Assembly: GCF_014202975.1 (NCBI RefSeq)
Contig: NZ_JACHHZ010000008.1
Coordinates: forward strand, 1-64,000
Length of the DNA stretch: 64,000 nt
Source: Povalibacter uvarum
Lineage (GTDB): Bacteria > Pseudomonadota > Gammaproteobacteria > Steroidobacterales > Steroidobacteraceae
Reading direction: 5' to 3'
The notes under the pieces were generated by a model. The model saw only the letters and a program-made list of their open reading frames with translations. It was not told the DNA's origin and made no database searches. The position numbers and the translations under genes were made by a program. Below, piece after piece: positions 28,388 through 49,446 of this stretch (the stretch's first letter is position 1; every line of letters starts with the position of its first letter).

Positions 28388-30949
28388 TCACTCGACCTCG
28401 ATGCGGCTGCTCAAACGGATATCACGCGACGACGCGCCGATCCTCAGCGTTCGTGAACCGGCCTGCTTCGTCCACCGCTTCTCGTCGACGGACCAGTAGG
28501 AGAGCTGGCGTGGATCGACCGGTATCGTTACAACGACGGACTCGCCGGGTTGCAACGTGACGCGATGGAAACCTGCAAGCGTCTGCGGCGGCATCGGCAC
28601 GGCGGGACGCGACGGCCGCGATACATACGCCTGCGGCACCTCGCTGCCTGCCACGTCACCCACATTGCGCACGGTGAACGTCGCTTCGAATCCTTCGCCC
28701 TTCGGCGCTACCTTGAGATCGCTGTAGCGGAACGACGTGTACGACAGTCCGTAGCCGAACGGATACAGCGGCTCGATCTTGTTCTGATCGAAGTGGCGAT
28801 AGCCCGTGAAGACGCCTTCGGAGTAGACGACCTTCTTGTCGACGCCGGTGTAGCGCTCGGGATGCTTCGGATCGAACGCGGCGACATCCGCAAACTTCTT
28901 CGGGAACGTCAGCGGCAAGCGCCCGCCGGGATTGCTCTTGCCCGTCAGCACATCCGCCGTCGCCCAGCCGCCCTCCTGGCCCGGGAACCACATATAGAGA
29001 ATCGCCTTCACACGGTCGCGCCAGGGCATGTCATGTGGGCTGCTGCTGTTTACAACCACGACGGTGTTCGGGTTGGCGCGCGAGACAGCATCGATCATCG
29101 CGTCCTGATCATTGGGAAGACGCAGTGCCTGGTCGGGATCGTCGAACTCACCGCTGCGCGCCCAGGCGAACAGGACCACAGTCTTCGCCGACTTCGCTGC
29201 TGTGACGGCGGCGGCGATGTTGTCCTTGCGCATCTGCGGTGTCACCCAGGCGAGCCGGATCTGCATCGTCGATTCGGGTTCGGCCTGCCCTTCCACTTCG
29301 ATCGCGTAAGTCTTGCCGGCCTCGAACTCGGCCACGTACTGAGCGTTGTCCAAACCGTCCGTTGTCGGGACGATGCTCGAGTACTTGCGCGGAATGCCGT
29401 GTCCGAATCTCACTGCCGCGGAGAACGCACGCGGCTGACCATCGATCTTGAGCACGCCGGTGCCGCCCCAGCTATGCATCTGCAGCGCGTATCTACCGGA
29501 CTCCGGCACTCGCAGCGTGCCGCGCCACGAATACCCCTGGCCGATTGGCAGTGCCTTGTTGCCGACGAAGTCGACACCCTGCTCCACGCCAATCACTGTC
29601 GAATCGATCGCACGGCGCGTGAGTCCATTGCCGCTGCCGCCATCGGCGGTGAGGGCACTGGCAGGAATCGCCGCCCCCGTGAGCTCATCACCCACCACGT
29701 GCGTGATGCGCGCTTCGGACCCGAGTGACTGTTTGAGCGCATCCATCGGCGACACGAAGCGGCTCTGGAATCCGGACACGCCCGGCCCTACCGCGAGCTG
29801 TGCTGCTGTCGGTCCGATGAGGAGGATGTCGCCAGCCTGCGCCGGCCGAAGAGGAAGCGCACCCTTCTGATTCTTCAACAGCACCGCACCTTCGGCTGCG
29901 AGGCTTCGGGCGAACGCGGCGTGCTTCTCGACGTCGATGGTCTGCATCGCTTTCACGCGCGTACCGTCGAGGAAACCGAATTTCTGCATCTGCGTGAGCA
30001 CACGCGTCACGGCACGATCCAGCGACTCCACCGACACCTGCTTGCCTTCAAGCGCGGCATTCAGGCGGGGGCCCCACTTCGCGCCCTCTCGACCAGTCGG
30101 GTACTGCGGCCCGACGCCAGGCATCTCGACATCGAGACCCGCGGTGATCGACGGTGTGCTGCGGTTGGCATGCCAGTCGGACATGACGAAGCCATCCCAC
30201 TTCAGCTCATCGCGCATCAAGCCGGTCAGATTGGCCTGGTTCTCGGCATTCCAGAACCCATTCGTCTTGTTGTACGCCGCCATCGAGGTGGCGACGCCAG
30301 CCTTGAAGGCGGCCTCGAAACCCGGCAGATAGATCTCATGCAGGGTCCGCTCATCGACCTGGAAGTCGAAGCCTTCGGCGCCGTTGATGCCGCCGCCCTG
30401 GTTGAGCGATTGATTGTTGGCGATGAAGTGCTTGGCATTCGCCATCGTGCCGGTCGACTGGATGCCGCCGATCTCGGCGACTGCCATCTGGCCGATGACG
30501 AACGGATCCTCGCCAAAACTCGTGACGTTGCGGCCCCAGTTCGGCAGGCGCGAAACATTCAACATGGGTCCAAGCAGCACGTCATTGCGGGTAGCACGGG
30601 ATTCCCAGCCGAGCACCTCCCCGTACTCACGCGCAGCATCGCGGCTGAACGTCGCCGCGAGCGCGATCGGTTGCGGCAACGCCGTCGTCTCATAACGCAG
30701 ATAGACATTCGCAGGGCCGTCCGCGAGTCGCAGTGGTGGAATGCCGAGCCTTGGCACGCCCGCGATATAACCTGCACCGCCGTTGTATGCGGGATCGCGC
30801 GTGCCCCACACCATCGACAGCTTCTCCTGCACCGTCATTTTCTCCAGCAGGGCTTTGACGGTGGCGGAAGGTTCCTGTGCGGTCGCCATCGCAGCAGGAA
30901 GCATGCATGCGGCCAGTGCCACGATTCGCGATGTGCGATTCGACTTCAC
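28388..30949 (-). CDS. GH3-family beta-glucosidase with PA14-like insert
   Basis: An 853-residue exported glycoside hydrolase. After a signal peptide, the N-terminal GH3 barrel contains K-H-F-I-A-N-N and the nucleophile in F-V-M-S-D-W (Asp near residue 258). The second GH3 domain holds L-L-K-N-Q-K-G-A-L-P-L. A PA14-like segment (R-V-P-E-S-G-R-Y-A-L-Q-M-H-S-W-G-G-T-G-V-L) is inserted in it. The C-terminus is fibronectin-III-like. The GTG at 30949 is chosen: AGGGGAA lies five bases upstream. It should release terminal beta-linked sugars in the periplasm. It follows a TonB receptor and precedes two exported proteins. Confidence 0.92.
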   Translation of the reverse strand: MKSNRTSRIVALAACMLPAAMATAQEPSATVKALLEKMTVQEKLSMVWGTRDPAYNGGAGYIAGVPRLGIPPLRLADGPANVYLRYETTALPQPIALAATFSRDAAREYGEVLGWESRATRNDVLLGPMLNVSRLPNWGRNVTSFGEDPFVIGQMAVAEIGGIQSTGTMANAKHFIANNQSLNQGGGINGAEGFDFQVDERTLHEIYLPGFEAAFKAGVATSMAAYNKTNGFWNAENQANLTGLMRDELKWDGFVMSDWHANRSTPSITAGLDVEMPGVGPQYPTGREGAKWGPRLNAALEGKQVSVESLDRAVTRVLTQMQKFGFLDGTRVKAMQTIDVEKHAAFARSLAAEGAVLLKNQKGALPLRPAQAGDILLIGPTAAQLAVGPGVSGFQSRFVSPMDALKQSLGSEARITHVVGDELTGAAIPASALTADGGSGNGLTRRAIDSTVIGVEQGVDFVGNKALPIGQGYSWRGTLRVPESGRYALQMHSWGGTGVLKIDGQPRAFSAAVRFGHGIPRKYSSIVPTTDGLDNAQYVAEFEAGKTYAIEVEGQAEPESTMQIRLAWVTPQMRKDNIAAAVTAAKSAKTVVLFAWARSGEFDDPDQALRLPNDQDAMIDAVSRANPNTVVVVNSSSPHDMPWRDRVKAILYMWFPGQEGGWATADVLTGKSNPGGRLPLTFPKKFADVAAFDPKHPERYTGVDKKVVYSEGVFTGYRHFDQNKIEPLYPFGYGLSYTSFRYSDLKVAPKGEGFEATFTVRNVGDVAGSEVPQAYVSRPSRPAVPMPPQTLAGFHRVTLQPGESVVVTIPVDPRQLSYWSVDEKRWTKQAGSRTLRIGASSRDIRLSSRIEVE

Positions 30950-30990
30950 TCGATTCCCCTTGGGTCTTTGTTCTTCTGGCAAACGCAGCT

Positions 30991-31009
30991 GCGCGCCCTC
31001 GCGGCGCGC
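30991..31009 (-). other. intercistronic hairpin between receptor and GH3 gene
   Basis: GCGCGCC-CTCGC-GGCGCGC, a 7-bp GC stem, follows the receptor stop by 22 bases on the minus strand. No T-run follows, so it is more likely an mRNA-stabilising or partial-termination hairpin than a full terminator. Confidence 0.45.
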
Positions 31010-31030
31010 AACTCGTTGAACACACCTGCT

Positions 31031-33340
31031 CTATTCGAACCGGAAGCCGAACGTCACACCCCATTCACGCGGGCGGCCCAGCGTGCCGTTGTCCATCTGA
31101 TCCGTCGGGATGTAGAAACCGTTGATGCGGTAGTACTCGTCCGTCAGGTTCGAACCGAACAACGCAACGTCCCACTTGCCGCCGGGTGCCGTGTACATCA
31201 GGCGCGCACCAAGCAGGCCATAGGCCGGGATGATCGACTTCTGGATATCCGCTGCCGTCTGGATCTCGTCCTGCCAGCCGTAGTCGGCGCGCAGCATCAG
31301 CCCGCCGCTGTTGGCCAGGTCCCACTGATACTGGGCGCCAACGCTGTAAGACGTATCCGGTGCATACGGGAACTTCTCGCCCAGCGGGATCGCGGTCGAA
31401 GTACCCAGATCCGTGTACTCGCTGTCGAGCCAGCCGAAGCCGTAGTTGATCGTGAAGTTGTCCGTCACGAGCCACATGCCCTCGACCTCGAGGCCCTTGA
31501 CCTCGGCTTCACCCGCGTTCGTCGTCGTCGGGAAGCGCGGGATGATCTCCTCGCTGACCTGGATGTCTTCGTACTGGCCGTAGAAGGCCGAGAGATTGAA
31601 GCGCAGGCGCCGGTCGAACAGGTCGGTGCGCAAGCCGAACTCGTAGTTCTTCAACGTTTCCGGGTTGTACGGAATCGCAAGACCGTTCACGTTGTTCACA
31701 CCGCCCTGGTTGAACCCTTCCGAGTAGGTGAGGTACGTCATGATGTCTGACGTCCACTGGTACTGCAGCGATACGCGCGGCGCCAGGTTGTCCCACTTGT
31801 CGGCGAGGTCCGTGCCCGGCCGCGGCGCGCCGCCATCGGTGGCGACGCTGAGTACCGGGGTACAGCACTCGACCGACACCGGCGTCTGCGGGTTGTACTG
31901 CGCGTTGTGAACTTTGTCTTCGTTGTACCGAGCGCCCGCGGTCAGCGACAGCTTGTCGGTGAAGTCGTAAGTCCATTCGGCGAAGACAGCCCAGCCTTCG
32001 GTGCTCGTGAAGGCGAGCTGATCGATCACGGGCGCGAAGAAGAACCGGCCGACGTATGCGGATGCCAGCGCGTTGCGGACCGGATCCACTTCCAGCTTGA
32101 GGTCGTTGGCCAGCCAGTTGATGCGGCGACCATAGCCCTTGTTGTCGTAGTAGTAGAAGCCGCTCGTGCCATGCAGGCGATCGCCGCCGTAGATGAACTG
32201 CAGTTCCGCGGTGCTCTCCTCCGGCTCGCTGTAGTTGGCACCATCGAAGATGTGATATGGCGTTCCGTCGAAGTCCGCATACGCCGTCGTCTCGATCTTG
32301 CGGTGGCTGCCGATGAACTTGGTCGACCAGGTATCGGTGAGATCGAAGTTGATCTCCGTCGAGAGACTCTTGACCGTGGTGTAGAGCTCCGGTCCGTTGT
32401 AGTCGCTGGCGGTCTTCATCTCGCCGCGTGCGCCGTACACATAGTCCTGGTTGATGGGCAGGCCAGCGTTCTCATACACGCACGGAAAGTTCGGTGCACC
32501 GCCCGGGAAGTTCGCCGGCGGATTCGGATCGCCCGGGCACACGGGATTCAGCGCCCAGACTGTCGATGGGTTGCCATTGGTCCGCTGCTGATCGTAGCCA
32601 GCGACGACGCGCCAGTTGAATCCATCGGTCGGCTGCCAGAGCACATCGAGGCGGCCGGTCGTATCGTCCTGGCTGCCAAAGCTCTGGTCGATGGTGGTGC
32701 TCGGAAGGAAGCCATCGCGCGAAAGCTTGGCGGCCGTGAGCTTGGTAAGGAGCGTCTCGCTGAGCGGGATGTCTACGTTCGCAGCGATGTCGAGGCGATC
32801 GTACGAACCCATGGTCGCCTTGACGCGCGCACCGAATGTGTCCTGCGGGCGCTGCGTCACGTACTGAACGGCGCCGCCGATGACGTTCTTGCCGAAGAGA
32901 GTGCCCTGCGGACCCCGCAGGACCTCGACGCGCTCCACTTCGACGATGTTCATGAGTGTGCCGGCCGACGAGCTGTTGACGATACCGTCAACGTAGATGC
33001 CGACGTTCGGAAGGCCGCGCATGCGGAAGCTGCCGCCCTGCCGGCCGAAGAAATTCGTGCTCGCGATGGTCACGTTCGGCACCATGCGGTTGAGTGATTC
33101 CGTATTGTCGATGCCGCGGACCTGGAGCTGCTCGGAGCTGAGCGCTGCGATCGACAGCGGCACTTCCTGCAGGCTTTCCTCACGCCGGCGGGCCGTCACC
33201 ATCACCTCTTCGAGCGGATTATCGAGTTGCGCGGTCTGATCGGCTGCCTGAGCCATCGCGTGCATCGGCACAAGCGTGGCAGCGGACGACAAAAGGGCCA
33301 TGCCGAAGCGGCTCATCGACTTCATCTTCCAATTTCTCAT
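31031..33340 (-). CDS. TonB-dependent outer-membrane receptor
   Basis: A 769-residue receptor. The signal peptide covers residues 1-31. The plug (about 40-160) has L-E-E-V-M-V-T-A-R-R-R-E-E-S-L-Q-E-V-P (TonB box region), V-E-R-V-E-V-L-R-G-P-Q-G-T-L-F-G-K-N and G-G-A-V. The barrel ends G-V-T-F-G-F-R-F-E with a terminal aromatic strand. There is no STN domain, so signalling to a sigma factor is less likely than for the receptor at 50697. It leads the GH3 operon, so a glycoside or phenolic glycoside is a reasonable cargo guess. Confidence 0.92.
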   Translation of the reverse strand: MRNWKMKSMSRFGMALLSSAATLVPMHAMAQAADQTAQLDNPLEEVMVTARRREESLQEVPLSIAALSSEQLQVRGIDNTESLNRMVPNVTIASTNFFGRQGGSFRMRGLPNVGIYVDGIVNSSSAGTLMNIVEVERVEVLRGPQGTLFGKNVIGGAVQYVTQRPQDTFGARVKATMGSYDRLDIAANVDIPLSETLLTKLTAAKLSRDGFLPSTTIDQSFGSQDDTTGRLDVLWQPTDGFNWRVVAGYDQQRTNGNPSTVWALNPVCPGDPNPPANFPGGAPNFPCVYENAGLPINQDYVYGARGEMKTASDYNGPELYTTVKSLSTEINFDLTDTWSTKFIGSHRKIETTAYADFDGTPYHIFDGANYSEPEESTAELQFIYGGDRLHGTSGFYYYDNKGYGRRINWLANDLKLEVDPVRNALASAYVGRFFFAPVIDQLAFTSTEGWAVFAEWTYDFTDKLSLTAGARYNEDKVHNAQYNPQTPVSVECCTPVLSVATDGGAPRPGTDLADKWDNLAPRVSLQYQWTSDIMTYLTYSEGFNQGGVNNVNGLAIPYNPETLKNYEFGLRTDLFDRRLRFNLSAFYGQYEDIQVSEEIIPRFPTTTNAGEAEVKGLEVEGMWLVTDNFTINYGFGWLDSEYTDLGTSTAIPLGEKFPYAPDTSYSVGAQYQWDLANSGGLMLRADYGWQDEIQTAADIQKSIIPAYGLLGARLMYTAPGGKWDVALFGSNLTDEYYRINGFYIPTDQMDNGTLGRPREWGVTFGFRFE

Positions 33341-33457
33341 GCGCTACGGTCCCCCGGGTTCCTGTGCCAGGAACGTCTGTGTTGGTTGCTCAACCGTGAC
33401 GCGAACTGTTAACGCACCGTTATCGCCTGCGTTATCGTAGTCGCGCCTCGAGCAGGT

Positions 33458-33477
33458 CGATCAACGCGTGTTGATCG
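33458..33477. promoter_or_regulatory. perfect dyad upstream of the receptor-GH3 operon
   Basis: CGATCAAC-GCGT-GTTGATCG, with 8-bp arms, lies about 118 bases upstream of the receptor start. A dyad of this form could be a repressor operator for the operon; no regulator is linked. Confidence 0.4.
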
Positions 33478-33564
33478 CGTGCTCTTGCTGACGAATACGT
33501 GCCAGGGCAGGCAATGACGACATTCTTTTCTACATTCGTGCGAACAGACGCAGAAACGAGAGAA

Positions 33565-33589
33565 GGCTGCGCACGGAGGGTGCGCAGCC
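33565..33589 (-). terminator. terminator of the MFS transporter gene
   Basis: GGCTGCGCAC-GGAGG-GTGCGCAGCC is a 10-bp perfect stem followed on the minus strand by TTCTCTCGTTTC, 24 bases beyond the transporter stop codon. Confidence 0.7.
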
Positions 33590-33613
33590 CTGAGAGTGAA
33601 ATCGCCGCGGCCG

Positions 33614-34849
33614 TCAGGCTGCCGGCGCTTCAGCGTTCAGCGCGGATACTTTTCGCGGCGCCGTTTCGACCAGGAAGATGCTGACGAAGAAGCCGGCAAC
33701 GAGGCCGATGAGCGCCATCGTGAGCACGTGCTGAATTCCATAGGTCTGGGCTATGTTGCCCGCGATGGCCGGTGCAATACCGCCGCCGAAGATCTCACCC
33801 GTGCCGATGATGATTCCCGCCGTCGAAGAGATCAGTCCGCGCGGTGCTGCTTCTGCGGCAATGGGACCGGTGATGAGCCCGAGCAGTCCGAAGCAGAAGA
33901 ACGTGCAGACAAAGAGCAGCGCAAACAGCAGAACGGGATTCGGTCCGACCTGCATGAATGCGTAGAGAAAGCCGGCGCCCAGCGCGAAGCCGATCAGTGA
34001 AATATTCTTCCGACCGACGAGGTCAGACGCGCCCGGTAGCACCACCTGACCCGCGAAGCCGCCGAAGCCGATCGCCGATGTGACGAAGCCCATCTGCACG
34101 GTCGTCAACTTCAGGTAGTCGACCAGGTAGTTCGGCGTCATTGCGCTCAGCACGAAAATTCCACTCATCGCGCACATGAGGGCGAGCATGCCGAGCTTCA
34201 CGTTGCGGTGATTCATCAAGTCCTTGAGCGGCGCGCGCTCGACCTTCGCGTTGGCGCCAACCGTGGCGGGCTCGCGAATCGTCTTCCACAGCAGGAATCC
34301 CAGGATCAGTCCGGGAATCGCCACGATCACGAACACCCAGCGCCAGTTGACGACCTGCAGCAGCTGCGTCGCGATGATCGGCCCAAGTGCAAGACCGAAC
34401 AACGGGAACGCACTTTGCTGGACACCGAGGTTGAATCCGCGGCGCGTCGGCAGGGACGCATCAGCGGTAGCCGCAAAGCTCGTCGGACAGAACGAGCCTT
34501 CCGTGATCCCCATCAATGCACGGATGACGAGGAGGCTCGCGATGCCGTGCGCGAAGCCGCTCAGACCGGAGAGGAGCGAGAACGCGAGAATCGCCGGCAC
34601 GAGGATCTTGCGGCGCCCGAGCCGGTCGGACAGCCCTCCCGCCACGATGGCGAACACACCCCAGGCGAGCCCGAGTGCACCGATCAGATTGCCCAGGGCC
34701 TGATAGTCGAGACCCAGGTCCTGCATCATCGAGGGAAACAGCGGCGCGATGATCCAGCGATCGAGCCCCACGAGGCCAAAGCCCAAGGTGAGCAGCGTGA
34801 CCGCCTTCCACTCGTAGTTCGTGTCCCACTGCGTCTGTGGTGCGCTCAT
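33614..34849 (-). CDS. MFS transporter
   Basis: A 411-residue inner-membrane transporter with twelve predicted helices. The loop 2-3 motif G-G-L-S-D-R-L-G-R-R-K (near residue 73) and a second D-L-V-G-R-K-N motif in the loop after helix 8 are standard for the family. It looks closest to the anion:cation symporter or aromatic-acid branches by overall pattern, but the cargo is not certain. It stands alone, between the receptor-GH3 operon and a DUF6152 gene, with its own terminator. Uptake of a phenolic or sugar acid is inference. Confidence 0.88.
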   Translation of the reverse strand: MSAPQTQWDTNYEWKAVTLLTLGFGLVGLDRWIIAPLFPSMMQDLGLDYQALGNLIGALGLAWGVFAIVAGGLSDRLGRRKILVPAILAFSLLSGLSGFAHGIASLLVIRALMGITEGSFCPTSFAATADASLPTRRGFNLGVQQSAFPLFGLALGPIIATQLLQVVNWRWVFVIVAIPGLILGFLLWKTIREPATVGANAKVERAPLKDLMNHRNVKLGMLALMCAMSGIFVLSAMTPNYLVDYLKLTTVQMGFVTSAIGFGGFAGQVVLPGASDLVGRKNISLIGFALGAGFLYAFMQVGPNPVLLFALLFVCTFFCFGLLGLITGPIAAEAAPRGLISSTAGIIIGTGEIFGGGIAPAIAGNIAQTYGIQHVLTMALIGLVAGFFVSIFLVETAPRKVSALNAEAPAA

Positions 34850-34935: not shown

Positions 34936-35319
34936 TCAGTCGAATGTTCCGCCCCACTTCCAGCCATCGGAGGGACGTTCGATCGTGTTCAGACGGATGC
35001 GGCGATCAGATTCCTGGCGGCCCGGTGCGCCCGTGATGACGACCTCATCGCCCGGCTTGAGCGTGTCGCGCGAGGCCATGCCGGCGAGCGCGCCCGCAGC
35101 CGCCCATTCGACCGCCCAACGGACCTGCTGGCCCGTGGAGTCCGGCGCCAGCACGACAATCATCGAATGCGGATTGCGGAACATGAACTGCACGACCTTG
35201 CCTTTGATCGTGACGCTCTTGTCGATGTAGTAAGTGGCGGGAAACGAGTGGTGCGCGAAGACGGGCACGGCCATTGCCAAAAGAGTCGCGGCGGCAATGC
35301 GAGCGAGGGCTCGGGTCAT
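34936..35319 (-). CDS. DUF6152-like exported protein
   Basis: A 127-residue periplasmic protein. The signal peptide ends V-F-A and is followed by H-H-S-F, the DUF6152 signature. F-R-N-P-H-S-M-I-V-V-L-A-P and K-P-G-D-E-V-V-I-T-G-A-P follow, as in the protein at 26275. The start at 35319 is set by the signal peptide; the longer frame is rejected. It lies upstream of the MFS gene on the same strand, 86 bases away. Confidence 0.78.
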   Translation of the reverse strand: MTRALARIAAATLLAMAVPVFAHHSFPATYYIDKSVTIKGKVVQFMFRNPHSMIVVLAPDSTGQQVRWAVEWAAAGALAGMASRDTLKPGDEVVITGAPGRQESDRRIRLNTIERPSDGWKWGGTFD

Positions 35320-35564
35320 TGATATCTCCTGAACTGATGTCGGCATGCGCCGCAACGCAACACAGGGGCGACCTCGCCGGCGAGCCGACGACCGGCTGCG
35401 CCCCCCGCTGCATCCGGCTTCATGCCTCATAAACGCGGCACGGTCGGGCGTGTCGACATTTGTCCGCCAGATCGCCGCGGCCGGGTGTCTGAGACGACGT
35501 AGTCGGGACGTTTAAGGTTCTGCCGTATTGCCGGCGCCCATCCCGCCCACCCGTGGAGAAATCA

Positions 35565-36033: not shown

Positions 36034-36336
36034 TCAGCCCACTTCGTAATCGACAACGCGCCGTTCCGTGCGGATCGGCGCGATCAGCCGCTTGAGCTGC
36101 TCGTGCAGCGGATGGGTCTCGTACGCCTGCAGCGCTGGCCAGTTGTCGAACTCCGAATAGAGAACCAGATCAGCGGCGTCGCTCACCGTCGACTCGTTGA
36201 AGCCGATCTCGACGCTCTTCAGGCCTTCGACGCCGTGACGAAGCGCATCGATCGAACGCCTGATGGCGCCGAGCCGTTCGGTGCGTTCTTCATCACCCGC
36301 AAACCTCAGTCGCCACATCACGAGGTGTTTGACCAT
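36034..36336 (-). CDS. Dabb (stress-responsive A/B barrel) protein
   Basis: A 100-residue cytosolic protein of the dimeric ferredoxin-like A/B barrel type: M-V-K-H-L-V-M-W-R-L at the start, G-L-K-S-V-E-I-G-F-N, A-A-D-L-V-L-Y-S-E-F, Y-E-T-H-P-L-H. Relatives bind small aromatic or polyketide molecules. It is the last gene of the hydroquinone operon, three bases after the CobT-like gene. It may handle a pathway intermediate; that is inference. Confidence 0.85.
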   Translation of the reverse strand: MVKHLVMWRLRFAGDEERTERLGAIRRSIDALRHGVEGLKSVEIGFNESTVSDAADLVLYSEFDNWPALQAYETHPLHEQLKRLIAPIRTERRVVDYEVG

Positions 36337-36339
36337 CTT

Positions 36340-38049
36340 CTACGCAGTCCTGCACGCGCGACGGTTGCGCGTCCGGCGCGCCATCGCAGTTGTTGACCTT
36401 CTACCCTTCGGATCGCGCGTGAGGAGTTCGACCAGTTTCCTGACCATTGCCTCGCCAAGCTCGACGGGCCCGCTGATAGTAAACGCACTGGAATACCAGG
36501 AACCGACATCGTGACCGATGCCGATGGCCAGCAACTCGACCGGGGACCGAGTCTGCACGTCCGCAATGACTCGTCTGAGGTCACGTTCCAGATATCCGGC
36601 ATCGTTTACCGCCAGTGTCGCTTCGTCGAGCGGCGCACCGTCGGAGATCACCATCAGAATGCGCCTCGGCTGCGGACGCTTCATGATTCGCGCATGCGCC
36701 CACCGGATAGCTTCACCATCGACGTTCTCCTTCAGCAGTCCCGGTTCGAGCATCGACGCGAGATGCCGACGCGTTCCGCGCCATGATCCCTCGGCAGGCT
36801 TGTAGATGACGTGGAGCAGCTCCGTCAGGCGTCCCGGATGCGCGGGACGATTCGCTGCGACCCATTGTTCGCGTGCACGTCCGCCTCGCCAGCGCCGTGT
36901 AGTGAACCCCAGGACTTCGGTGGCGATCCCGCAGCGCTCGAGTGTCGTCGCAAGCATCCACGCGCAGGTCGCGGCCATGGATATCGGCACGCCGCGCATC
37001 GATCCTGAGTTGTCGATGAGTAGCGTCAGCGCAGTCCCGGGAAACTGCGCCTCGCGCTCCTGTTTGAACGTCAAGGGCTGCGACGCATCGACGACAATGC
37101 GCGCCAGTCGTCCGCAGTCCAGCAGACCCTCTTCGCAATCGAACGTCCACGAACGCACCTGCCGCGAGAGCAGATGACGCTGCAAACGGGCAGCCCAGCG
37201 CGCGATGTTGGGCTGAACGGATTTCCGGAACGCGTCGAACTGCGCATTGAGGCGACGGCGAGTGCTGTCGTCACACAGGTCGCCAGCATCGAGCGTTGCG
37301 TCGTACTGTGTGGTAAAGATGCGATACGCGTTCCCGGTTTCATCGGCGGGGCCGCGTGCAGGCACGATGCGCCCTCGCGGCTCATCGCGAATCCTGCGCA
37401 GGATTCCCGCATGTGTCGCTTCCACTCCCTCCCGGGGCGACGTCTCCTTCATCTCGCCGCGAGGCAGACCGCGGTCGGGCTGCGCTGCTGATTGCGTAGC
37501 ATCGGGTGTCAGCGGCTTTGCCGGCACGCCGTTGGCCGCCAACTCCGCCGCCAGTCGCGCCGCCTCTTCGCCGAACGCGCGCTGATCGGCAATCAACGCG
37601 GCAAGCCGATCGAGCCGCACAGCAAAGTCGTCGGAAACGTTCTGCGCCGAAATCGCGGAGACAAGTCGCGCTCGCACCAGATTGATGACGTGATCCCCGC
37701 TGCCCTGCCCTTGCGCAGCGCCTCCCTGCACTGCCCGAAGATTCTCACGAACGCCCGCGAAGTCGCGGCATCCGAGCGCCTCGCAGCGACACTGCTCCAG
37801 CCTCGAGAAATGCTGTCGCGCTGCGCCCGACGGCGACTGTGACGCGAACAAAACAGGATCGGTGTAGCGCAGCCTGACCGCTGCAGCATCCACTCGGCCA
37901 CGCCATGCACACAACGCAGCGTCATCAGGATCTGACGGCATCGTCGCCAGCAGCGCTTCGACTCCTTTTGGATCCGCCTGCCGTGCCAACGCCTTGAGCG
38001 TCGCAAGCGACGCCCCGCGAAGATCTCGCGGATTGGGTGCGCCTGTCAT
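36340..38049 (-). CDS. CobT-like VWA-domain protein
   Basis: A 569-residue cytosolic protein resembling the CobT subunit of aerobic cobaltochelatase. The N-terminal helical half (residues 1-335) is poorly conserved but includes the [10 protein letters not shown] segment seen in CobT. The C-terminal von Willebrand A domain (about 336-560) has the metal-ion-dependent adhesion motif D-N-S-G-S (346-350) and a later V-I-S-D-G-A-P. CobT works with the AAA+ CobS and the chelatase CobN to insert cobalt; no CobN is present in this window. Here it lies in a hydroquinone operon, overlapping the CobS-like gene by ATGA, suggesting a metal-handling or enzyme-activating role for another target. Confidence 0.85.
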
Positions 38050-38987
38050 GCGCTGCCGAAACAGCGCTGGTAGAGCTCCATGATCGCGTCGTGCTCAGAA
38101 GGATCGCACTTGTTGAGGAAGCTCAGCACGAAAGCCTCGCGCACGTCGGTGAAGATCAGCGCGTTCTCCGCCCAGGTGATCACAGTCCGCGGCGACATGA
38201 CCGTGGAAACCTCGTCGGCGATGAACGCCTCACGAACGAGACCGGCCATCGCGACCATAGCTGCTGCAAGCCCAGGCCATTTCGCCTCGAGCGCGGGAAC
38301 GCGAGCAGTCACAACTGCCACTTCGTACTCGGGCTGCAGGTAGTTGAGGGCGGCGACGATGTGCCAGCGATCCATCTGCCCTTGGTTGATGGGTTGCGTG
38401 CCGTGATAGATGCCAGCGGGATCTCCCAGGCCGACGGTGTTGGTCGTGGCGAACAACCGGAATGCAGGGTGAGGCGTGAGCACGCGACTCTGGTCGAGCA
38501 GCGTCAGCGACCCTTCGACCTCGAGAATTCGCTGCAGCACGAACATCACATCCGGTCGCCCCGCATCGTACTCATCGAACAGCAGCGCGACGTTGCGCTG
38601 CAGTGCCCACGGCAGAATGCCTTCGCGAAACTCGGTGATCTGTTTCCCGTCACGCACGACGACCGCGTCCTTGCCGATCAGGTCGATGCGACTGATGTGA
38701 CTGTCGAGGTTGATGCGCACCAGCGGCCAGTTGAGCCGCGCCGCGACCTGCTCGATGTGCGATGACTTGCCCGTGCCGTGATATCCCTGCAGGAGCACAC
38801 GGCGGTTGTGAGCAAAGCCGGCGAGGATCGCAAGCGTCGTTGCCGGATCGAAGCGATAGGCAGGATCGCGACGCGGTACATGTTCGTCGACGGCGCTGAA
38901 TGCAGGCACACGCAGGTCGCTGTCGATACCGAACGCCTCGCGGACACTGATCTCGGTGTCCGGCAGCGATGACAATGCGTTATCCAT
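38046..38987 (-). CDS. CobS-like AAA+ ATPase
   Basis: A 313-residue cytosolic ATPase. Walker A is G-Y-H-G-T-G-K-S-S (68-76) and Walker B L-L-F-D-E-Y-D (135-141), with sensor-1 [11 protein letters not shown] after it. The N-terminal S-V-R-E-A-F-G-I-D and V-P-x-x-D-x-x-Y-R-F-D segments are CobS-specific. It belongs to the MoxR-like AAA+ clade that pairs with VWA proteins to remodel or metallate enzymes. The ATG at 38987 overlaps the Rieske gene by eight bases. It partners with the CobT-like protein (ATGA overlap). The target is proposed to be the dioxygenase of this operon. Confidence 0.88.
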
Positions 38988-39351
38988 TTGCGGCCACCCT
39001 GACTTCGCCGTCAACGACTGTCACAGGAATTGCCTGGAGACTGCGGTCCTTCGCCGGGCCTTCGACGCAGAACCCGTCATGGAGGCGAAACAACGCGCAG
39101 TGATACGCACACATGATGTGACCATCGTTCGTCAGCAGGAATTCGCCCGGCGTTGAGTTGAGCGGCAGCGAGAAGTGCGGGCACTCATTGACATACGCTC
39201 GCACGCCGCCATCCGAATGCGTAAGCAGGATGCGCAGCGCTCCTCCACCCTCCCCGCGCAATACCTCCAGGCCGTTGCCGTTCGGTATGGCTTCCACGCG
39301 GCAAAGGCGTTCACCCGACTTCGGCGCGTGAGGATGCGATCGCCAGCTCAT
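38980..39351 (-). CDS. Rieske-type [2Fe-2S] ferredoxin
   Basis: A 123-residue cytosolic ferredoxin. The cluster motifs are C-P-H (Cys57, His59) and C-A-Y-H (Cys81, His84), giving the Rieske two-Cys/two-His ligation. There is no oxygenase catalytic domain. Extradiol dioxygenases are often rescued from oxidative inactivation by a small ferredoxin encoded beside them (XylT-type, which is plant-type rather than Rieske). Here the operon position suggests a similar reductive role for the hydroquinone dioxygenase. It starts 24 bases after the dehydrogenase stop. Confidence 0.85.
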
Positions 39352-39375
39352 GAGCGGAGGCTTCCGCCCCTGGAG

Positions 39376-40845
39376 TCAGCGCGGGTAGTGCGGAGGAATC
39401 TGCGCATCCACGTTGATCCACACCGACTTGGCTTCGGTGTAATCGTGCATGGCTTCGAATCCCATCTCGCGCCCGTAGCCGGAACTGCCGACGCCGCCGA
39501 ACGGCGATCCGGGATTGACACGCTTGTACGAGTTCACCCAGACCATGCCGGCGCGAATGGCAGCCGCGACCCGATGGGCACGCTGCAGGTTCGTCGTCCA
39601 CAGGCCGCTGCCGAGTCCGTACTCAGTCGAGTTCGCAATCGCGATCGCCTCTGCTTCATCGCGGAAGGTCGTGACCGAGATGAAAGGCCCGAACACCTCT
39701 TCCTGACAGACGCGATCCTGCGGGCTTGCGCGGACGATCGTCGGTTCCACAAAGAATCCGTTGGCGAGCGCCGGGTTGTCGGGCCGCTTGCCGCCAGTGA
39801 GCACTTCCGCCCCCTGCTGCTTCGCGATCTCGCAGTACGACAGCACGCTCTGCTGCTGCTTCTGCGATGTCAGTGGCCCCATCTCGGTGGCAGGATCGAG
39901 CGGATCGCCGAGCCGGATGGATCGCGCGAGCTTGATGAAACCTTCGAGGAAGCGATCCGCGATCTCCTCCTGCAGCAACAGCCGCGAGCCGGCGATACAA
40001 GCCTGGCCCTGGTTGTGGAAGATCGCGAACGCGCTCCCATTGATCGCAGCCTGCAGGTTCGCGTCGGCGAAGACGATGTTCGCGCCTTTGCCGCCCAGTT
40101 CGAGCTGCACGCGCTTCAGATTGCCTGCGGATGCTTGCACGATCCTGCGACCGACTGCAGTCGATCCGGTGAAAGCAATCTTCTGGACCTGCGGATGTTC
40201 GGCGAGATGCTGACCGGCGGGGTTGCCATACCCGGGGACGATATTGACGACGCCGGGTGGGAATCCCACCTCCGCGATCAGCTCCGCGATCTTGAGCGAT
40301 GACAGCGGCGTGATCTCTGCGGGCTTCATCACCACCGTGTTGCCGGCTGCCAGTGCAGGGCCAAGCTTCCAGCTCGTGAACATGAGCGGGAAGTTCCACG
40401 GCACTACCTGGCCGACGACCCCGATGGGCTCGCGCAGCACGTAGTTGAGGAATCCGGCTTCGACGGGCACCACGCTGCCCTGAACCTTGTCGGCCATACC
40501 CGCGAAGTAGCGGAACGTCACGGCAGTGCGAGGGACATCCAGCGAGCGCGTGTCGCGAATCGGGTGACCGGTATCCTCGGCCTCGATCTTCCCCAGTTCC
40601 TCGGCACGGGCTTCAATTGCATCGGCGAGCTTGCCCAGCAGGCGCCCGCGCTGTGCCGCTGGCGTATCCCGCCATTTCGGAAACGCTGCACGAGCCGCAT
40701 CCACGGCGCGATCGATGTCGGGCGCCTTGGCCTCAGCGACCTTCGTGAGCACCGATCCGGTGTACGGATTGACGACATCCATCGTGGCGCCGTCGAGCGC
40801 GTCGACGAACTCTCCGCCGATGAACAGTTTGGTTTGTAGTGTCAT
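39376..40845 (-). CDS. aldehyde dehydrogenase, probable 4-hydroxymuconic semialdehyde dehydrogenase
   Basis: A 489-residue NAD(P)-dependent aldehyde dehydrogenase. The order is P-W-N-F-P-L (near 153), F-T-G-S-T-A-V-G-R-R (Rossmann loop), the general-base Glu in L-E-L-G-G-K-G and the catalytic Cys in N-Q-G-Q-A-C, then E-E-V-F-G-P-F. In hydroquinone pathways the ring-cleavage product 4-hydroxymuconic semialdehyde is oxidised to maleylacetate by an enzyme of this family, and this gene directly follows both dioxygenase subunits. The ATG at 40845 is preferred over a frame extension. Confidence 0.88.
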   Translation of the reverse strand: MTLQTKLFIGGEFVDALDGATMDVVNPYTGSVLTKVAEAKAPDIDRAVDAARAAFPKWRDTPAAQRGRLLGKLADAIEARAEELGKIEAEDTGHPIRDTRSLDVPRTAVTFRYFAGMADKVQGSVVPVEAGFLNYVLREPIGVVGQVVPWNFPLMFTSWKLGPALAAGNTVVMKPAEITPLSSLKIAELIAEVGFPPGVVNIVPGYGNPAGQHLAEHPQVQKIAFTGSTAVGRRIVQASAGNLKRVQLELGGKGANIVFADANLQAAINGSAFAIFHNQGQACIAGSRLLLQEEIADRFLEGFIKLARSIRLGDPLDPATEMGPLTSQKQQQSVLSYCEIAKQQGAEVLTGGKRPDNPALANGFFVEPTIVRASPQDRVCQEEVFGPFISVTTFRDEAEAIAIANSTEYGLGSGLWTTNLQRAHRVAAAIRAGMVWVNSYKRVNPGSPFGGVGSSGYGREMGFEAMHDYTEAKSVWINVDAQIPPHYPR

Positions 40846-40917
40846 TGCAGTCTCACAAGGCAATACGAGGCCGGGTGACGCGCGGTCACCAGCTCGCACC
40901 GGAATTTCCGGCGCCGG

Positions 40918-41925
40918 TCAGAACTCGACGGGATACGGTTTCAGCTCGCCCCGCTCATACATCTGCGGCAACTCGGGGGTCGCGTTTTCCCACACGAGCA
41001 GCATCGAGCGCTTCTTCGAGTAGCCCTGATGACGAATGTCCGCGGGCATCGCCGCGACGTCGCCCGCCTTCATGATCACCTTGGCGCGGGGCGCGCCGGT
41101 GTTCTTGTCTTCGATCTGCCATTCCAGCTCGTCGCTCAGCTGGATGAACCATTCGACGCGGTCGTTGCCGTGCTTGATGGGCAGCAGGTATTCCTCCGTG
41201 GTCGGGCAGCACAGGCTGCGCTCGAGCACGGACGACACCGACGGATTCCATGTCACGTCCGAGCGTGACAGGTACGCGAACAGGCTGAACGCGTGAACTT
41301 CGTTCTCGAAGCCCGGTTCGGCGTGAACTTCTGGTTCGTCCTGGGAGACATCGGCGAACGCGCGGTTCACCGGATAGCCGTTGTCGTCGCGGCGCAGCTC
41401 GGCATCGCCCGGCAGGCCCGGCATCCGCTTGCAGGCCTGACGTTCGCGCTCGATGGCGCCTCGGTTGTTGCCGTTCTTGCGGCCAAGCCAGGTCTTGCCG
41501 GTCTCATCGGGCGCCGCGAAGGGATCGAAGCCTTCATTCGTCCAGTCGTCGAGGATCGCCTTGAAGGTCGCCATGATCTGGCGCGAATCGAAGGTCTCGA
41601 CGTGATCGAGCCCTCTTTCCTTGTAGGCGGGATTGTAGGTGCCCGCGTAGAACTCCACTTTGCCGTAGAGATTGCGGGTACCGATCATGCTGTCGAAATT
41701 GACCCAGCCATAGAAGAAGCCCCAGGCCACGTCGCGCATCATGGCGCGCAGGAAGGCATCCGCGGACATCTTGTGGGACAGCTTCTGTCCCTGCGCTTCC
41801 CAGCCGATACGGACGAAGTATTCGTCGCGGCTGAAGGAAAATCCGCCCAGCTCGAAACTGCGATAGCCGGTTTCATTGCTCGCCGGCGATGCAGCGACCT
41901 GAAGTGCCCCACCCGTCTGACTCAT
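40918..41925 (-). CDS. hydroquinone 1,2-dioxygenase large subunit
   Basis: A 335-residue cytosolic protein matching the about 38-kDa subunit of the two-component hydroquinone 1,2-dioxygenases (HapD/PnpE2/HqdB type). Recognisable parts are G-Y-R-S-F-E-L-G-G-F-S-F-S-R-D-E-Y, V-A-W-G-F-F-Y-G-W-V-N-F-D, E-N-E-V-H-A-F-S-L-F-A-Y-L-S-R-S-D and the cupin-like C-terminus K-H-G-N-D-R-V-E-W-F-I-Q-L-S-D-E with an A-G-D-V-A-A-M-P-A-D-I-R-H-Q-G-Y turn. It uses Fe(II) to cleave hydroquinone between C1 and C2. It lies 44 bases after the small subunit. Confidence 0.85.
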   Translation of the reverse strand: MSQTGGALQVAASPASNETGYRSFELGGFSFSRDEYFVRIGWEAQGQKLSHKMSADAFLRAMMRDVAWGFFYGWVNFDSMIGTRNLYGKVEFYAGTYNPAYKERGLDHVETFDSRQIMATFKAILDDWTNEGFDPFAAPDETGKTWLGRKNGNNRGAIERERQACKRMPGLPGDAELRRDDNGYPVNRAFADVSQDEPEVHAEPGFENEVHAFSLFAYLSRSDVTWNPSVSSVLERSLCCPTTEEYLLPIKHGNDRVEWFIQLSDELEWQIEDKNTGAPRAKVIMKAGDVAAMPADIRHQGYSKKRSMLLVWENATPELPQMYERGELKPYPVEF

Positions 41926-41969
41926 GCTCGCAACTCCTGCAGTGTCCGGACGCGGTCAGACCCACCGCA

Positions 41970-42473
41970 TCACGTGTAACAGATCTCGCCCCACTTCTTG
42001 ACCGACAGCGCACCTTCGACGGTCTGCAGCAGGATCACGCCCGGGCGCGTTGCCTTGAAGCGGTAGGCCGCGCCACGCGGCAACAGGACCTGGTGTCCGC
42101 GGCGACATTTCACCCATCCCATCTTCCGGCCCGCCGGCGTGCCTTCGATCGCGACGCTGCCCCGCGTCTGGGGCGCCACTACGGCATCGGGGCTGTCGAG
42201 CTTCAGCAGTTCGACGTCCACCTCACCGTCCATCACGATCGCAAACTCGTCATGCGCCGCCGCAAACCACCCCGAGTTGCCCTCCGCCCGCAGCGTTTCG
42301 AGGACGTAGCCCAGGTTGATCGCGACAACCACCTTCTCATACGGACGAGAACGGGTGGCGACGTCAAAAATGTTCGAGAAGACGTAGTTCTTCGGGTTGT
42401 CGTTGATGATCTCGAGCTCGCCGCGCTGGAAATCGCTCAGCGAGCCGAACACGGTATGAAATTCAGTCGTCAT
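41970..42473 (-). CDS. hydroquinone 1,2-dioxygenase small subunit
   Basis: A 167-residue protein matching the about 18-kDa subunit (HapC/PnpE1/HqdA type): F-Q-R-G-E-L-E-I-I-N-D-N-P-K-N-Y-V-F-S-N-I-F-D-V-A, Y-E-K-V-V-V-A-I-N-L, A-A-H-D-E-F-A-I-V-M-D-G-E-V-D-V and R-R-G-H-Q-V-L-L-P-R-G-A-A-Y-R-F. The cupin-like fold is visible. The ATG at 42473 (MTTEFHTVFG) is used; the TTG further upstream lies in the leader. It starts 36 bases after the FecR stop and heads the seven-gene operon. Confidence 0.85.
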   Translation of the reverse strand: MTTEFHTVFGSLSDFQRGELEIINDNPKNYVFSNIFDVATRSRPYEKVVVAINLGYVLETLRAEGNSGWFAAAHDEFAIVMDGEVDVELLKLDSPDAVVAPQTRGSVAIEGTPAGRKMGWVKCRRGHQVLLPRGAAYRFKATRPGVILLQTVEGALSVKKWGEICYT

Positions 42474-47494: not shown

Positions 47495-48583
47495 CTAGGA
47501 TTCGGTCGCAACCGCTGCGTACTGAGACTGGCTGATGCGGGATTTGTCCCTGACCTTCTGCGTGCCCTCGACGATCACCTGTTGTTCTCGCTTGAGGCCC
47601 GACAGGATCTCCACCTCGCCAGTCAGCCGACGCCCGATGGATACCTCCTGCTTCAATGCGGTATCGCCCTCGGCAACGAAAACAAAGACGCGGCCCTGCT
47701 CCGGGACGAGCGCCGCTTCGGGGACCACGAGCGCCTTCGTCGGTGCCGCGCGCACAACGACCGACATGAACGTGCCTGGTTTCAGAATGCCGTCGCGATT
47801 GCTGACGACGGCGCGCGTATTGATGGTGCGCGTCACCGGGTCGACGCGTGAGTCGAACGCGCTGATGCGACCATCGAACTTCTGCCCGGGCAACCCCGAT
47901 GCGGTCGCGACAACCGGCAATCCGTCCTTGAGCGCGTACTGATACACCTGCGGCACCGTGAACTCGATCTTGATCACGGACGTATCGTCGAGCGTCGTGA
48001 TGGCCGTCCCCGGTGGGACAAGGCTGCCGACGCTCACGCGGCGAAAACCGGTGCGGCCCGAGAAAGGTGCGCGAATGACTGTATCCGAAAGGCGCGACTT
48101 CGCCGCAGCGACCCGCGCCTGATTGGCCTTGTAGGTGGCCTCGATCTGATCGAGCTGCGACTGCGAAAGAATCTTCGTCGAGGCGAGGCTGCGGCTGCGC
48201 TCGAGCGCAGCGGTACTCTCGATGAGTGCCGCTTCCGCCTCGGCGAGCTCTGCTCGCGGCTGCGCGCCGTCGAACTCGATCAGTACGGTATCGCGCCTGA
48301 CGACCTCGCCTTCGACGAAGCGAATCGCCGTTACGATGTTCAAGGTCTTCGACGTCAGTTCGACGGATTCATTGGCGCGAGCCGAGCCCACGGCTTCGAT
48401 CAGGAGATCCAATTCCTTCTCGACGACCGGGCTCGTAACGACCGCCGTCACTGCGCCCGCATTGCCGCCGGGTCCACGTGCGCCATCGACCGGCTTGGCG
48501 TTGGGCGAGCAACCGAGCACACCGGCAAGCCCTCCCGTTGCGGTCACTGCGATGAGCACAAACCTGTTCACACGCACGTTCAA
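47495..48583 (-). CDS. RND membrane-fusion lipoprotein
   Basis: A 362-residue periplasmic adaptor. The signal ends in the lipobox G-V-L-G-C. The barrel-sandwich part has V-G-S-A-R-A-N-E-S-V-E-L-T-S-K and V-I-R-A-P-F-S-G-R-T-G-F-R-R-V-S-V-G-S-L-V, with a coiled-coil hairpin between (about residues 100-155). The C-terminus carries the V-V-P-E-A-A-L-V-P segment. The start is a TTG at 48583 that overlaps the dioxygenase TGA (TTGA), with a GTG two codons on as an alternative. It joins the RND permease to the outer membrane. Confidence 0.9.
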   Translation of the reverse strand: MNVRVNRFVLIAVTATGGLAGVLGCSPNAKPVDGARGPGGNAGAVTAVVTSPVVEKELDLLIEAVGSARANESVELTSKTLNIVTAIRFVEGEVVRRDTVLIEFDGAQPRAELAEAEAALIESTAALERSRSLASTKILSQSQLDQIEATYKANQARVAAAKSRLSDTVIRAPFSGRTGFRRVSVGSLVPPGTAITTLDDTSVIKIEFTVPQVYQYALKDGLPVVATASGLPGQKFDGRISAFDSRVDPVTRTINTRAVVSNRDGILKPGTFMSVVVRAAPTKALVVPEAALVPEQGRVFVFVAEGDTALKQEVSIGRRLTGEVEILSGLKREQQVIVEGTQKVRDKSRISQSQYAAVATES

Positions 48584-49446
48584 GCGCCGTCCTCTCGATC
48601 CAGCACGAACTCGTGATCCAGCGTCCAGCGAAGGTCCGAGGCCGCGTCTGAAACAGGGATGTAGTCCACCAGCAGCGACGGCTTCACTCCAAAGACCGCA
48701 TCCGAGTCGATGTAGGGATCACCCCGCGTGTACATCTGAGTCGTGAGTGACCGGAATCCCGGAGCAGTCACCGTGAAGTGAATGTGAGCAGGACGCATGG
48801 GATGCCGCCCGGCGAGCGTCAGCAGCGATCCGACGGGGCCATCGACCGGAACGGGATAGAACGTCGGCTTGAGTGTCGTGAACGCGAATGTTCCGTCGCC
48901 ACGGGATCGCAGCCTGCCGCGAAAGTTCATCTCGGGCTGCGTGGAGTCCTGAACTGCGTACAGCTGATTCGGAGCCGTGTGCCAGATGTCGAGGATCGCA
49001 CCGGCGATCGGCTCGCCGTCGACCGAGCGTACGCTGCCCGTGATCAGCACACGTTCGCCCTCCCCCGCCAGCGCGATGCTGGCGCCGTGCTCGACGTCGG
49101 GTGAACCCGGCGCGTAGAACGGTCCGGTCACCGCGGACTCCGTCGCGCCGGGAGAGGATGCATTGTGAATGTTGTCGACCGCCGAGCTGATACCGAGTGC
49201 GTCTGACAGGAGAATGAACTCCTGACGCGGACCGACACACGTCTTGCCTGTGCGGGTCAGGAAGTCGATTGCGGCGAACCACTCCGGCGGAGTCAGTCCG
49301 GTTTCATTGACGAACGCGTGCAGGTGACGAAGCAGCGACTCGGCAACGGTGTTCCAGCGTGCGTCTTCGGTGCGCGCATACGACGCGATGACTTCCTGGA
49401 GCAAAGCGTCGTTGAGGGCGCGGCTTGCTGGCGAATGCGATGTCAT
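48580..49446 (-). CDS. hydroxyquinol/catechol-type intradiol dioxygenase
   Basis: A 288-residue Fe(III) dioxygenase. After an N-terminal helical dimerisation part, G-P-F-Y-A-P-G-S-P supplies one tyrosine ligand and T-F-Y-P-V-P the second. R-P-A-H-I-H-F-T-V-T supplies the two histidines. G-A-I-L-D-I-W-H-T-A-P-N is the family block in the middle. Its position next to maleylacetate reductase favours hydroxyquinol (benzene-1,2,4-triol) as substrate, giving maleylacetate. The ATG at 49446 overlaps the reductase TGA (ATGA). Confidence 0.9.
   Translation of the reverse strand: MTSHSPASRALNDALLQEVIASYARTEDARWNTVAESLLRHLHAFVNETGLTPPEWFAAIDFLTRTGKTCVGPRQEFILLSDALGISSAVDNIHNASSPGATESAVTGPFYAPGSPDVEHGASIALAGEGERVLITGSVRSVDGEPIAGAILDIWHTAPNQLYAVQDSTQPEMNFRGRLRSRGDGTFAFTTLKPTFYPVPVDGPVGSLLTLAGRHPMRPAHIHFTVTAPGFRSLTTQMYTRGDPYIDSDAVFGVKPSLLVDYIPVSDAASDLRWTLDHEFVLDREDGA

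Follow-up and report, generated by a model that had tools for sequence, protein, structure and literature searches.

Why would an operon for opening the ring of hydroquinone carry two genes of a kind that is annotated as cobaltochelatase, a label that suggests B12 synthesis? The question is raised by a 64,000-nucleotide stretch of the Povalibacter uvarum genome (RefSeq assembly GCF_014202975.1, contig NZ_JACHHZ010000008.1, positions 1 to 64,000; hereafter, the window), in which a CobS-like AAA+ ATPase and a CobT-like VWA protein are encoded within a hydroquinone dioxygenase (HQDO) operon. The association of HQDO with CobS/CobT is real, conserved and, as far as our literature searches reach, undescribed, and it is a variant of the AAA+/VWA maturation pairs. 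Full-text searches, with most subscription papers outside their scope, yielded no paper that joins hydroquinone dioxygenase with CobT, or CobS plus MoxR and VWA with a dioxygenase; a full-text search for cobaltochelatase and hydroquinone yielded only a species description, judged by its title. We put at roughly 55% the probability that this pair, which has no CobN, is an ATP-driven maturation or reactivation machine for the dioxygenase, in the manner of NorQ/NorD or CbbQ/CbbO; the client, any complex formed with it, and a step acting on the iron are proposals.

The hydroquinone dioxygenase operon

The source genome (G000) is 6.32 Mb in size and 98.28% complete, and the window lies on its contig C8. 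Seven genes run in one block on the minus strand, from 42473 down to 36034. The small subunit of the dioxygenase (HqdA/PnpC type, 41970-42473) has no Pfam match and aligns with 5m21_A (3.3e-62) and 4zxa_A (8.4e-61); the large subunit (HqdB/PnpD type, 40918-41925) matches PF18191 (PnpD_N, 7.9e-68) and 4zxa (8e-154), with 5m21 also matched. Then follow an aldehyde dehydrogenase (39376-40845, Aldedh 4.6e-183; its start was placed, by inference, at the first internal ATG), which is probably a 4-hydroxymuconic semialdehyde dehydrogenase, and a Rieske-type [2Fe-2S] ferredoxin (38980-39351, PF00355 1.3e-9, with CPH...CAYH visible in the sequence). The CobS-like AAA+ ATPase (38046-38987) matches CobS_N (PF12556, 9.4e-17) and AAA_5 and carries Walker A (GYHGTGKS) and Walker B (LLFDEY) motifs. 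The CobT-like protein (36340-38049) matches CobT_C (PF11775, 1.2e-73) and the CobT N-part (PF06213, 7.2e-19) and has a VWA domain with the metal ion-dependent adhesion site (MIDAS) DNSGS. The last gene encodes a dimeric alpha/beta-barrel (Dabb) protein (36034-36336, Pfam Dabb 7e-19). The order, strand, coordinates, and tight spacing reported in the initial annotation held up on re-reading and against Pfam, as did the two overlaps it named (ATGA between CobS and CobT, and 8 bases, 38980-38987, between the Rieske gene and CobS).

Both subunits are clearly homologous to PnpCD/HqdAB (4zxa, 5m21), and the His/Asn/Glu/His positions of a type II hydroquinone 1,2-dioxygenase are present. These PnpD residues (H252, N254, E258, and H299) are kept in 88 of 88 aligned homologs, and we take them, as in PnpCD, to be the iron ligands.

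Conservation of the linkage

GTDB species genomes were scanned with a seven-sequence PnpD alignment as query, which returned 438 relatives; counts of loci below refer to the best 80 of these 438. CobS and CobT occur in 8 of the 80 HQDO loci (L011-L018), in the order and on the strand seen in the window. These loci come from two species and six metagenome genomes and share the block PnpC-PnpD-(aldehyde dehydrogenase)-Rieske-CobS-CobT. In L014 the aldehyde dehydrogenase is displaced, yet PnpD-Rieske-CobS-CobT remains contiguous. A further case, outside the 80, is genome G380 (L136), with PnpC-PnpD-aldehyde dehydrogenase-Rieske-CobS-CobT; this genome also has a second CobS/CobT pair (L141) that is unlinked to HQDO. 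Because the same order is found in other genomes, the seven-gene arrangement is beyond chance.

The closest loci with species names are those of Peristeroidobacter agariperforans and Steroidobacter agaridevorans, with large subunits 91-92% identical. In both species the HQDO block is preceded by genes for a TonB receptor, a maleylacetate reductase, an intradiol dioxygenase, and a FecR-like protein, and followed by a small protein resembling that at 34936-35430 of the window and then a major facilitator superfamily (MFS) transporter. PnpD is at least 76% identical to that of the window in ten loci, eight of which carry the pair; the other two stop at contig edges, 91 bases (L019) and 1.9 kb (L026) after PnpD.

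A strong CobT_C match lies inside the HQDO locus in 8 of 10 genomes checked, on another contig in G278, and nowhere in G282. The CobT of L015, the HQDO locus of G278, is cut by the contig end, and the strong match of that genome is on contig C260 (L148), where CobT is followed by Dabb. Over 376 bases the end of C260 resembles the end of L015 at 93%, and the CobT encoded on C260 shares 95% identity with that of L016; C260 is probably the continuation of the L015 block in a related strain. The second CobT_C match in G000 (L110) scores 21.6 bits against a cut-off of 21. Among 274 genomes of the class, PF18191 matches 4.

Sequence, phylogeny, and structure of the pair

An AAA+ protein with Walker A and B motifs directly beside a VWA protein with a MIDAS is the layout of MoxR-type pairs. 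By sequence, the two proteins are relatives of the chelatase subunits: identity to four alphaproteobacterial pairs annotated as cobaltochelatase is 64-69% for CobS and 41-43% for CobT, and solved CobS and CobT structures were matched at 465.6 and 617.5 bits. Both fall below the equivalog cut-offs, with 515.2 bits for TIGR01650 (CobS, cut-off 558.55) and 454.3 bits for TIGR01651 (CobT, cut-off 759.05). Similarity of CobS to NorQ (E 1.5e-6) and CbbQ (1.5e-9) is remote, and its sequence places it in the CobS family rather than with NorQ/CbbQ.

Walker A and B are intact in the HQDO-linked CobS proteins listed, with the exception of that in L013 (12832-13698, from the bog_1200 genome), which is short and has no Walker B match, owing either to assembly error or to real loss. 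CobT retains DxSxS in all rows listed, and T383, T384, and D470 are invariant in eight. HQDO-linked CobT proteins have lost most of the acidic stretch. The maximum of D/E per 40 residues is 9 in the window and 5-15 in other HQDO-linked CobT, compared with 20-21 in the four alphaproteobacterial CobT (chelatase subunits by annotation) and 18-23 in two from CobN-bearing genomes. This count does not separate the groups cleanly, given values of 16 beside urease, 16-17 beside a DRL oxidoreductase, and 11 beside MttB (it is 18-24 beside AurF-like proteins and 8-15 beside Xsc/Pta).

In a tree built from concatenated CobS and CobT sequences (38 tips; the unannotated L147 was included and the unannotated, partial L146 left out), the nine HQDO-linked pairs in which both genes are present fall into one group together with L139 (support 0.977). 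L139, the only other member, lies beside an aldehyde dehydrogenase fragment at the end of a 5.8-kb contig and may be a cut HQDO locus. Purifying selection acts on both proteins in the pairs compared: dN/dS, from three pairs for each gene, is 0.06-0.15 for CobS and 0.23-0.24 for CobT, with 0.007-0.07 for PnpD.

The AlphaFold model of CobT is of mediocre confidence (pLDDT 67.7) and shows a VWA-like domain joined by a low-confidence linker to a helical N-part. Among the PDB entries matched by Foldseek, the first five are NorQ/NorD complexes, in each case chain G, which we took as NorD (E 1.1e-8 to 1.1e-6).

Is the pair part of B12 synthesis?

The pair could be an ordinary B12 cobaltochelatase CobS/CobT that sits in this operon by chance. 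Its homology to the subunits of CobNST is clear, and a CobN-family member occurs in 5 of 10 genomes (the genome of the window, those of L011-L018, and that of L026) as well as in G380. The initial annotation had seen no CobN in the window, and we can extend this to the whole of G000, in which, at 98.28% completeness, the CobN/BchH family has no match. CbiC/CobH is required for the corrin ring in both B12 routes. It was found in none of 13 genomes, several of them incomplete or of unstated completeness, by a search that as a control detected it in 7 of 14 known genomes. A cobN and B12 pathway elsewhere in the genome, using only this cobST copy, had been named as a finding that would refute the proposal; neither a CobN-family gene nor CbiC/CobH was found in G000, and a B12 chelatase role there is therefore very unlikely and was rejected. 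The window pair further differs from CobNST in its scores below the equivalog cut-offs, in its mostly lost acidic CobT linker, and in its setting in an aromatic-degradation operon.

The CobN-family members of the other genomes also speak against a chelatase. Those of G276 and G281 (L103, L104) are BchH, in bch clusters and over the BchH cut-offs, and that of G280 (L108/L109, split over two contigs) is BchH by its bch neighbors only. In G274 and G275 (L105-L107) the family members are CobN-like, seem to carry a signal peptide, and have a TonB receptor or genes of B12 salvage type (named by eye) as neighbors. L105, in G275, passes one NCBIfam CobN cut-off, whereas the other protein of G275 and that of G274 fall below, making G275 the weakest case for ruling out a B12 role. 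The CobN-family protein of G380 is encoded behind one that weakly resembles a TonB receptor, and its matched part (1071 residues) reaches none of the cut-offs. No CobS or CobT homologs were found around the CobN-family genes, either in the seven stretches (L103-L109) or around that of G380. Taken over all these genomes, we regard an ordinary cobaltochelatase as extremely improbable.

Two further observations concern these genomes. Three of those with HQDO-linked CobS/CobT (G276, G281, and G280) hold a photosynthesis-type bch cluster. At L105 (8353-12297), in L106 and L107, and at L149 (6287-10675), CobN-like genes have TonB receptor-like genes or genes of B12 salvage type in their vicinity; their products may be compared with the de-chelatase HmuS (PMC12583661).

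Rieske and Dabb companions

The initial annotation treated the Rieske ferredoxin, CobS, and CobT as one set of three genes to be found together with the dioxygenase subunits. Co-occurrence of all three with the dioxygenase was seen in the 8 of 80 loci and in G380, but the grouping itself fails: a Rieske gene is present in the fetched stretch of 69 of the 80 HQDO loci, and 61 of these 69 are without CobS/CobT. It is also present in the annotated plasmid clusters of Pseudomonas JS425 (pPNP1), Sphingobium cloacae, and Conchiformibius, which, unlike the window, have no CobS/CobT beside their PnpCD/HqdAB. The Rieske ferredoxin is thus a common companion of the dioxygenase and stands outside the CobS/CobT module. 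It resembles the XylT-type ferredoxin, which we take to re-reduce catechol 2,3-dioxygenase, in being a small [2Fe-2S] protein encoded beside an Fe(II) ring-cleaving dioxygenase; it differs in being of Rieske type, widespread with HQDO, and independent of CobS/CobT.

A Dabb gene is present in the window and in 7 loci, all of which bear CobS/CobT; among L011-L018 it follows CobT wherever the contig reaches that far. None was found in the remaining loci searched, and none was detected in G380 despite its CobS/CobT. This distribution bears on whether the client of the pair could be some protein other than HQDO (the Rieske ferredoxin, Dabb, the intradiol dioxygenase, or an unlinked enzyme), with the linkage to HQDO reflecting co-regulation only. 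The confinement of Dabb to CobS/CobT loci would fit such a client. However, G380 has the pair and no detected Dabb, the Rieske ferredoxin and the intradiol dioxygenase are common without the pair, and in L014 CobS and CobT stay beside PnpD although the aldehyde dehydrogenase is displaced; we consider a client other than HQDO quite unlikely.

CobS/CobT pairs beside other enzymes

CobN-free pairs are not confined to HQDO operons. PF11775 matches 23 of the 274 class genomes, 14 of them (including that of the window) at more than 100 bits, and in 10 of the 13 other genomes with such a strong CobT the CobN/BchH family has no match. CobS adjoins CobT in 14 of the 15 other strong CobT loci of the class sample (the exception is L129), and some of the neighbors lack names. 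Among those that can be named, all within a few kb, sulfoacetaldehyde acetyltransferase (Xsc) is near the pair in G143, G224, and three plasmids (5 of 5 over the TIGR03457 cut-off), and phosphotransacetylase (Pta)-type proteins are near it in G047 and in G143 (there between xsc and cobS). In L132 the order is xsc-pta-cobS-cobT on one strand. The Xsc- and/or Pta-linked pairs L132, L134, L112, L113, L114, and L135 form one group in the tree, which also takes in L133 and L147, two pairs whose neighbors are unassigned. An AurF-like protein (PF11583; AurF is a diiron oxygenase) is beside the pair in G176 and G046 (L127, L131), and these two pairs are sisters in the tree; an MttB-like protein is near the pair in G265.

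Two further loci have other neighbors. On plasmid pPO70-1 of Pandoraea oxalativorans (L111, 5281-8725), a urease cluster has cobS and cobT directly behind its ureG. In Caballeronia NK8 (L112, 7865-8875), a CobW/UreG-type GTPase on the opposite strand overlaps the end of cobT, with an amidohydrolase behind.

The pairs look like client-specific subfamilies. We would tentatively go further, to a general ATP-driven maturation or repair machine that serves HQDO, Xsc, AurF-like proteins, urease, and other clients, with the B12 chelatase as one specialized branch and iron renewal as the task of the HQDO branch; this broader view seems to us a serious possibility that falls somewhat short of even odds.

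Proposed function

The linkage, the co-inheritance, the intact motifs, the purifying selection, and the absence of signs of a B12 route are established. From these we propose that an ATP-driven CobS hexamer would carry CobT in its pore, and that the VWA domain of CobT, through its MIDAS, would dock on the dioxygenase. Remodeling might then open the active site for insertion of Fe(II), or else a dead enzyme (with oxidized or lost iron, or inactivated by turnover) might be cleared and reloaded. Electrons from the Rieske ferredoxin could return Fe(III) to Fe(II) in place.

The model for this proposal is NorQ/NorD, which is required for insertion of the non-heme FeB and depends on both ATP hydrolysis and MIDAS integrity; a VWA finger is proposed to dock in the AAA+ pore (PMC9976466). 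The window pair shares with it the two-part design, the intact MIDAS, and the neighboring iron enzyme, and the CobT model has its first, loosely superposed, Foldseek hits there; the pair differs in that CobS is only distantly related to NorQ and in that the client, a membrane reductase in the case of FeB insertion into cNOR, would be a soluble ring-cleaving dioxygenase. CbbQ/CbbO, which activates Rubisco (PMC9976466), is likewise an AAA+/VWA pair with a single enzyme client and a possible reactivation role, although its client is another one and the similarity of CobS to CbbQ is remote.

A repair machine would have work in such an operon because HQDO is sensitive both to O2 and to its own substrate. 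The TTNP3 enzyme loses activity to O2 and partly regains it with Fe(II) and ascorbate; hydroquinone inactivates it irreversibly during turnover, and this loss is not rescued by Fe(II) (PMC3222310). Ferredoxin-driven re-reduction of the iron was already proposed by the authors of that work (PMC3222310).

The failure of Fe(II) to reverse turnover inactivation, together with the Rubisco precedent, points as well to a different mode of action, in which the pair would act as a reactivase in the manner of CbbQ/CbbO, expelling a tightly bound inhibitor or rescuing a dead form modified by quinone, while iron would need no help to enter. The first fold matches are to NorQ/NorD, an iron-insertion pair, which argues against it. 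The Xsc-linked relatives argue for it, as they adjoin what we take to be a non-iron enzyme. On balance such a reactivase may be considered possible but rather unlikely.

Returning to a pair that matures or renews HQDO, several observations weigh against it. CobS/CobT was not seen in 72 of the 80 loci, 59 of which have at least 6 kb on each side; the other 70 loci, with PnpD less than 76% identical, are all negative, and a search of the negatives for weaker CobS or CobT matches found none. The two truncated loci may truly lack the pair. The genome of L026 (G282) is without any CobT_C match, and that of L019, the metagenome genome Loclat_bin-08192, has a single strong CobT and two HQDO loci: L016 with CobS/CobT, and L019 as a second copy cut just after PnpD. 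Five loci without the pair (L021, L027, L029, L030, and L071, two of them with less than 6 kb on one side) fall inside the smallest PnpD clade that holds all ten positives, and in G017 and G120 HQDO and CobT are on separate contigs. CobT itself is poorly conserved, at 35-56% identity to that of the window. The superposition on NorD is loose (rmsd 10-12 A, TM 0.55-0.64 by target), and the MIDAS of human MDN1, at rank 6, superposes better than the NorD entries. Solved CobT chains exist and none is among the 50 Foldseek matches listed, so the result can be read as "NorD-like" and never as "not CobT-like." Finally, related CobN-free pairs adjoin Xsc, which we take to be a thiamine-diphosphate enzyme, so the machine need not be iron-specific.

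Since 72 of 80 loci lack CobS/CobT, loading by the pair is not a general need of HQDO; the pair is an accessory of one HQDO lineage, and was probably recruited once into the operon of a Steroidobacter-like lineage. The idea of an AAA+/VWA maturation pair tied to the dioxygenase, put forward in the initial annotation, is supported by the linkage across that lineage and by the five best Foldseek matches, weak as their superposition is; a general requirement of the enzyme class for the pair is not supported. Because most of the HQDO loci returned do without it, we infer that the pair widens the range or lengthens the life of the enzyme rather than serving its basic activity, or that the HQDO of this lineage came to depend on it. 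Candidate hallmarks of such dependence were set aside: S16, N17, P99, A217, K251 (which adjoins H252), E272, and K282 of PnpD and D19 of PnpC are fixed or nearly so in the CobS/CobT-positive loci, and shared descent explains this equally well as function.

Neighboring genes and possible feedstock

The same pathway cluster of the window includes an intradiol (catechol/hydroxyquinol-type) dioxygenase (48580-49446), named from profile matches, and a maleylacetate reductase-like protein of the iron alcohol dehydrogenase family (49443-50510; Pfam, with one homolog annotated as maleylacetate reductase), both on the minus strand. Adjoining the hydroquinone cluster at 28388-34849 are a GH3 beta-glucosidase, a TonB receptor, and an MFS transporter; the transporter and receptor are also kept beside the cluster in Peristeroidobacter. 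At a guess, the feedstock of the cluster could be a glucoside of hydroquinone or of a phenol, such as arbutin.

Implications

In bacteria that do not make B12, a two-protein ATP machine of B12 type has apparently been re-used as the helper of an iron enzyme that opens the hydroquinone ring. If the pair does mature or repair HQDO, the dioxygenase would be a soluble and tractable client with which to learn how AAA+/VWA pairs load metal, and the pair would account for the survival, in some bacteria, of a ring-cleaving enzyme that is sensitive to oxygen and to its substrate.

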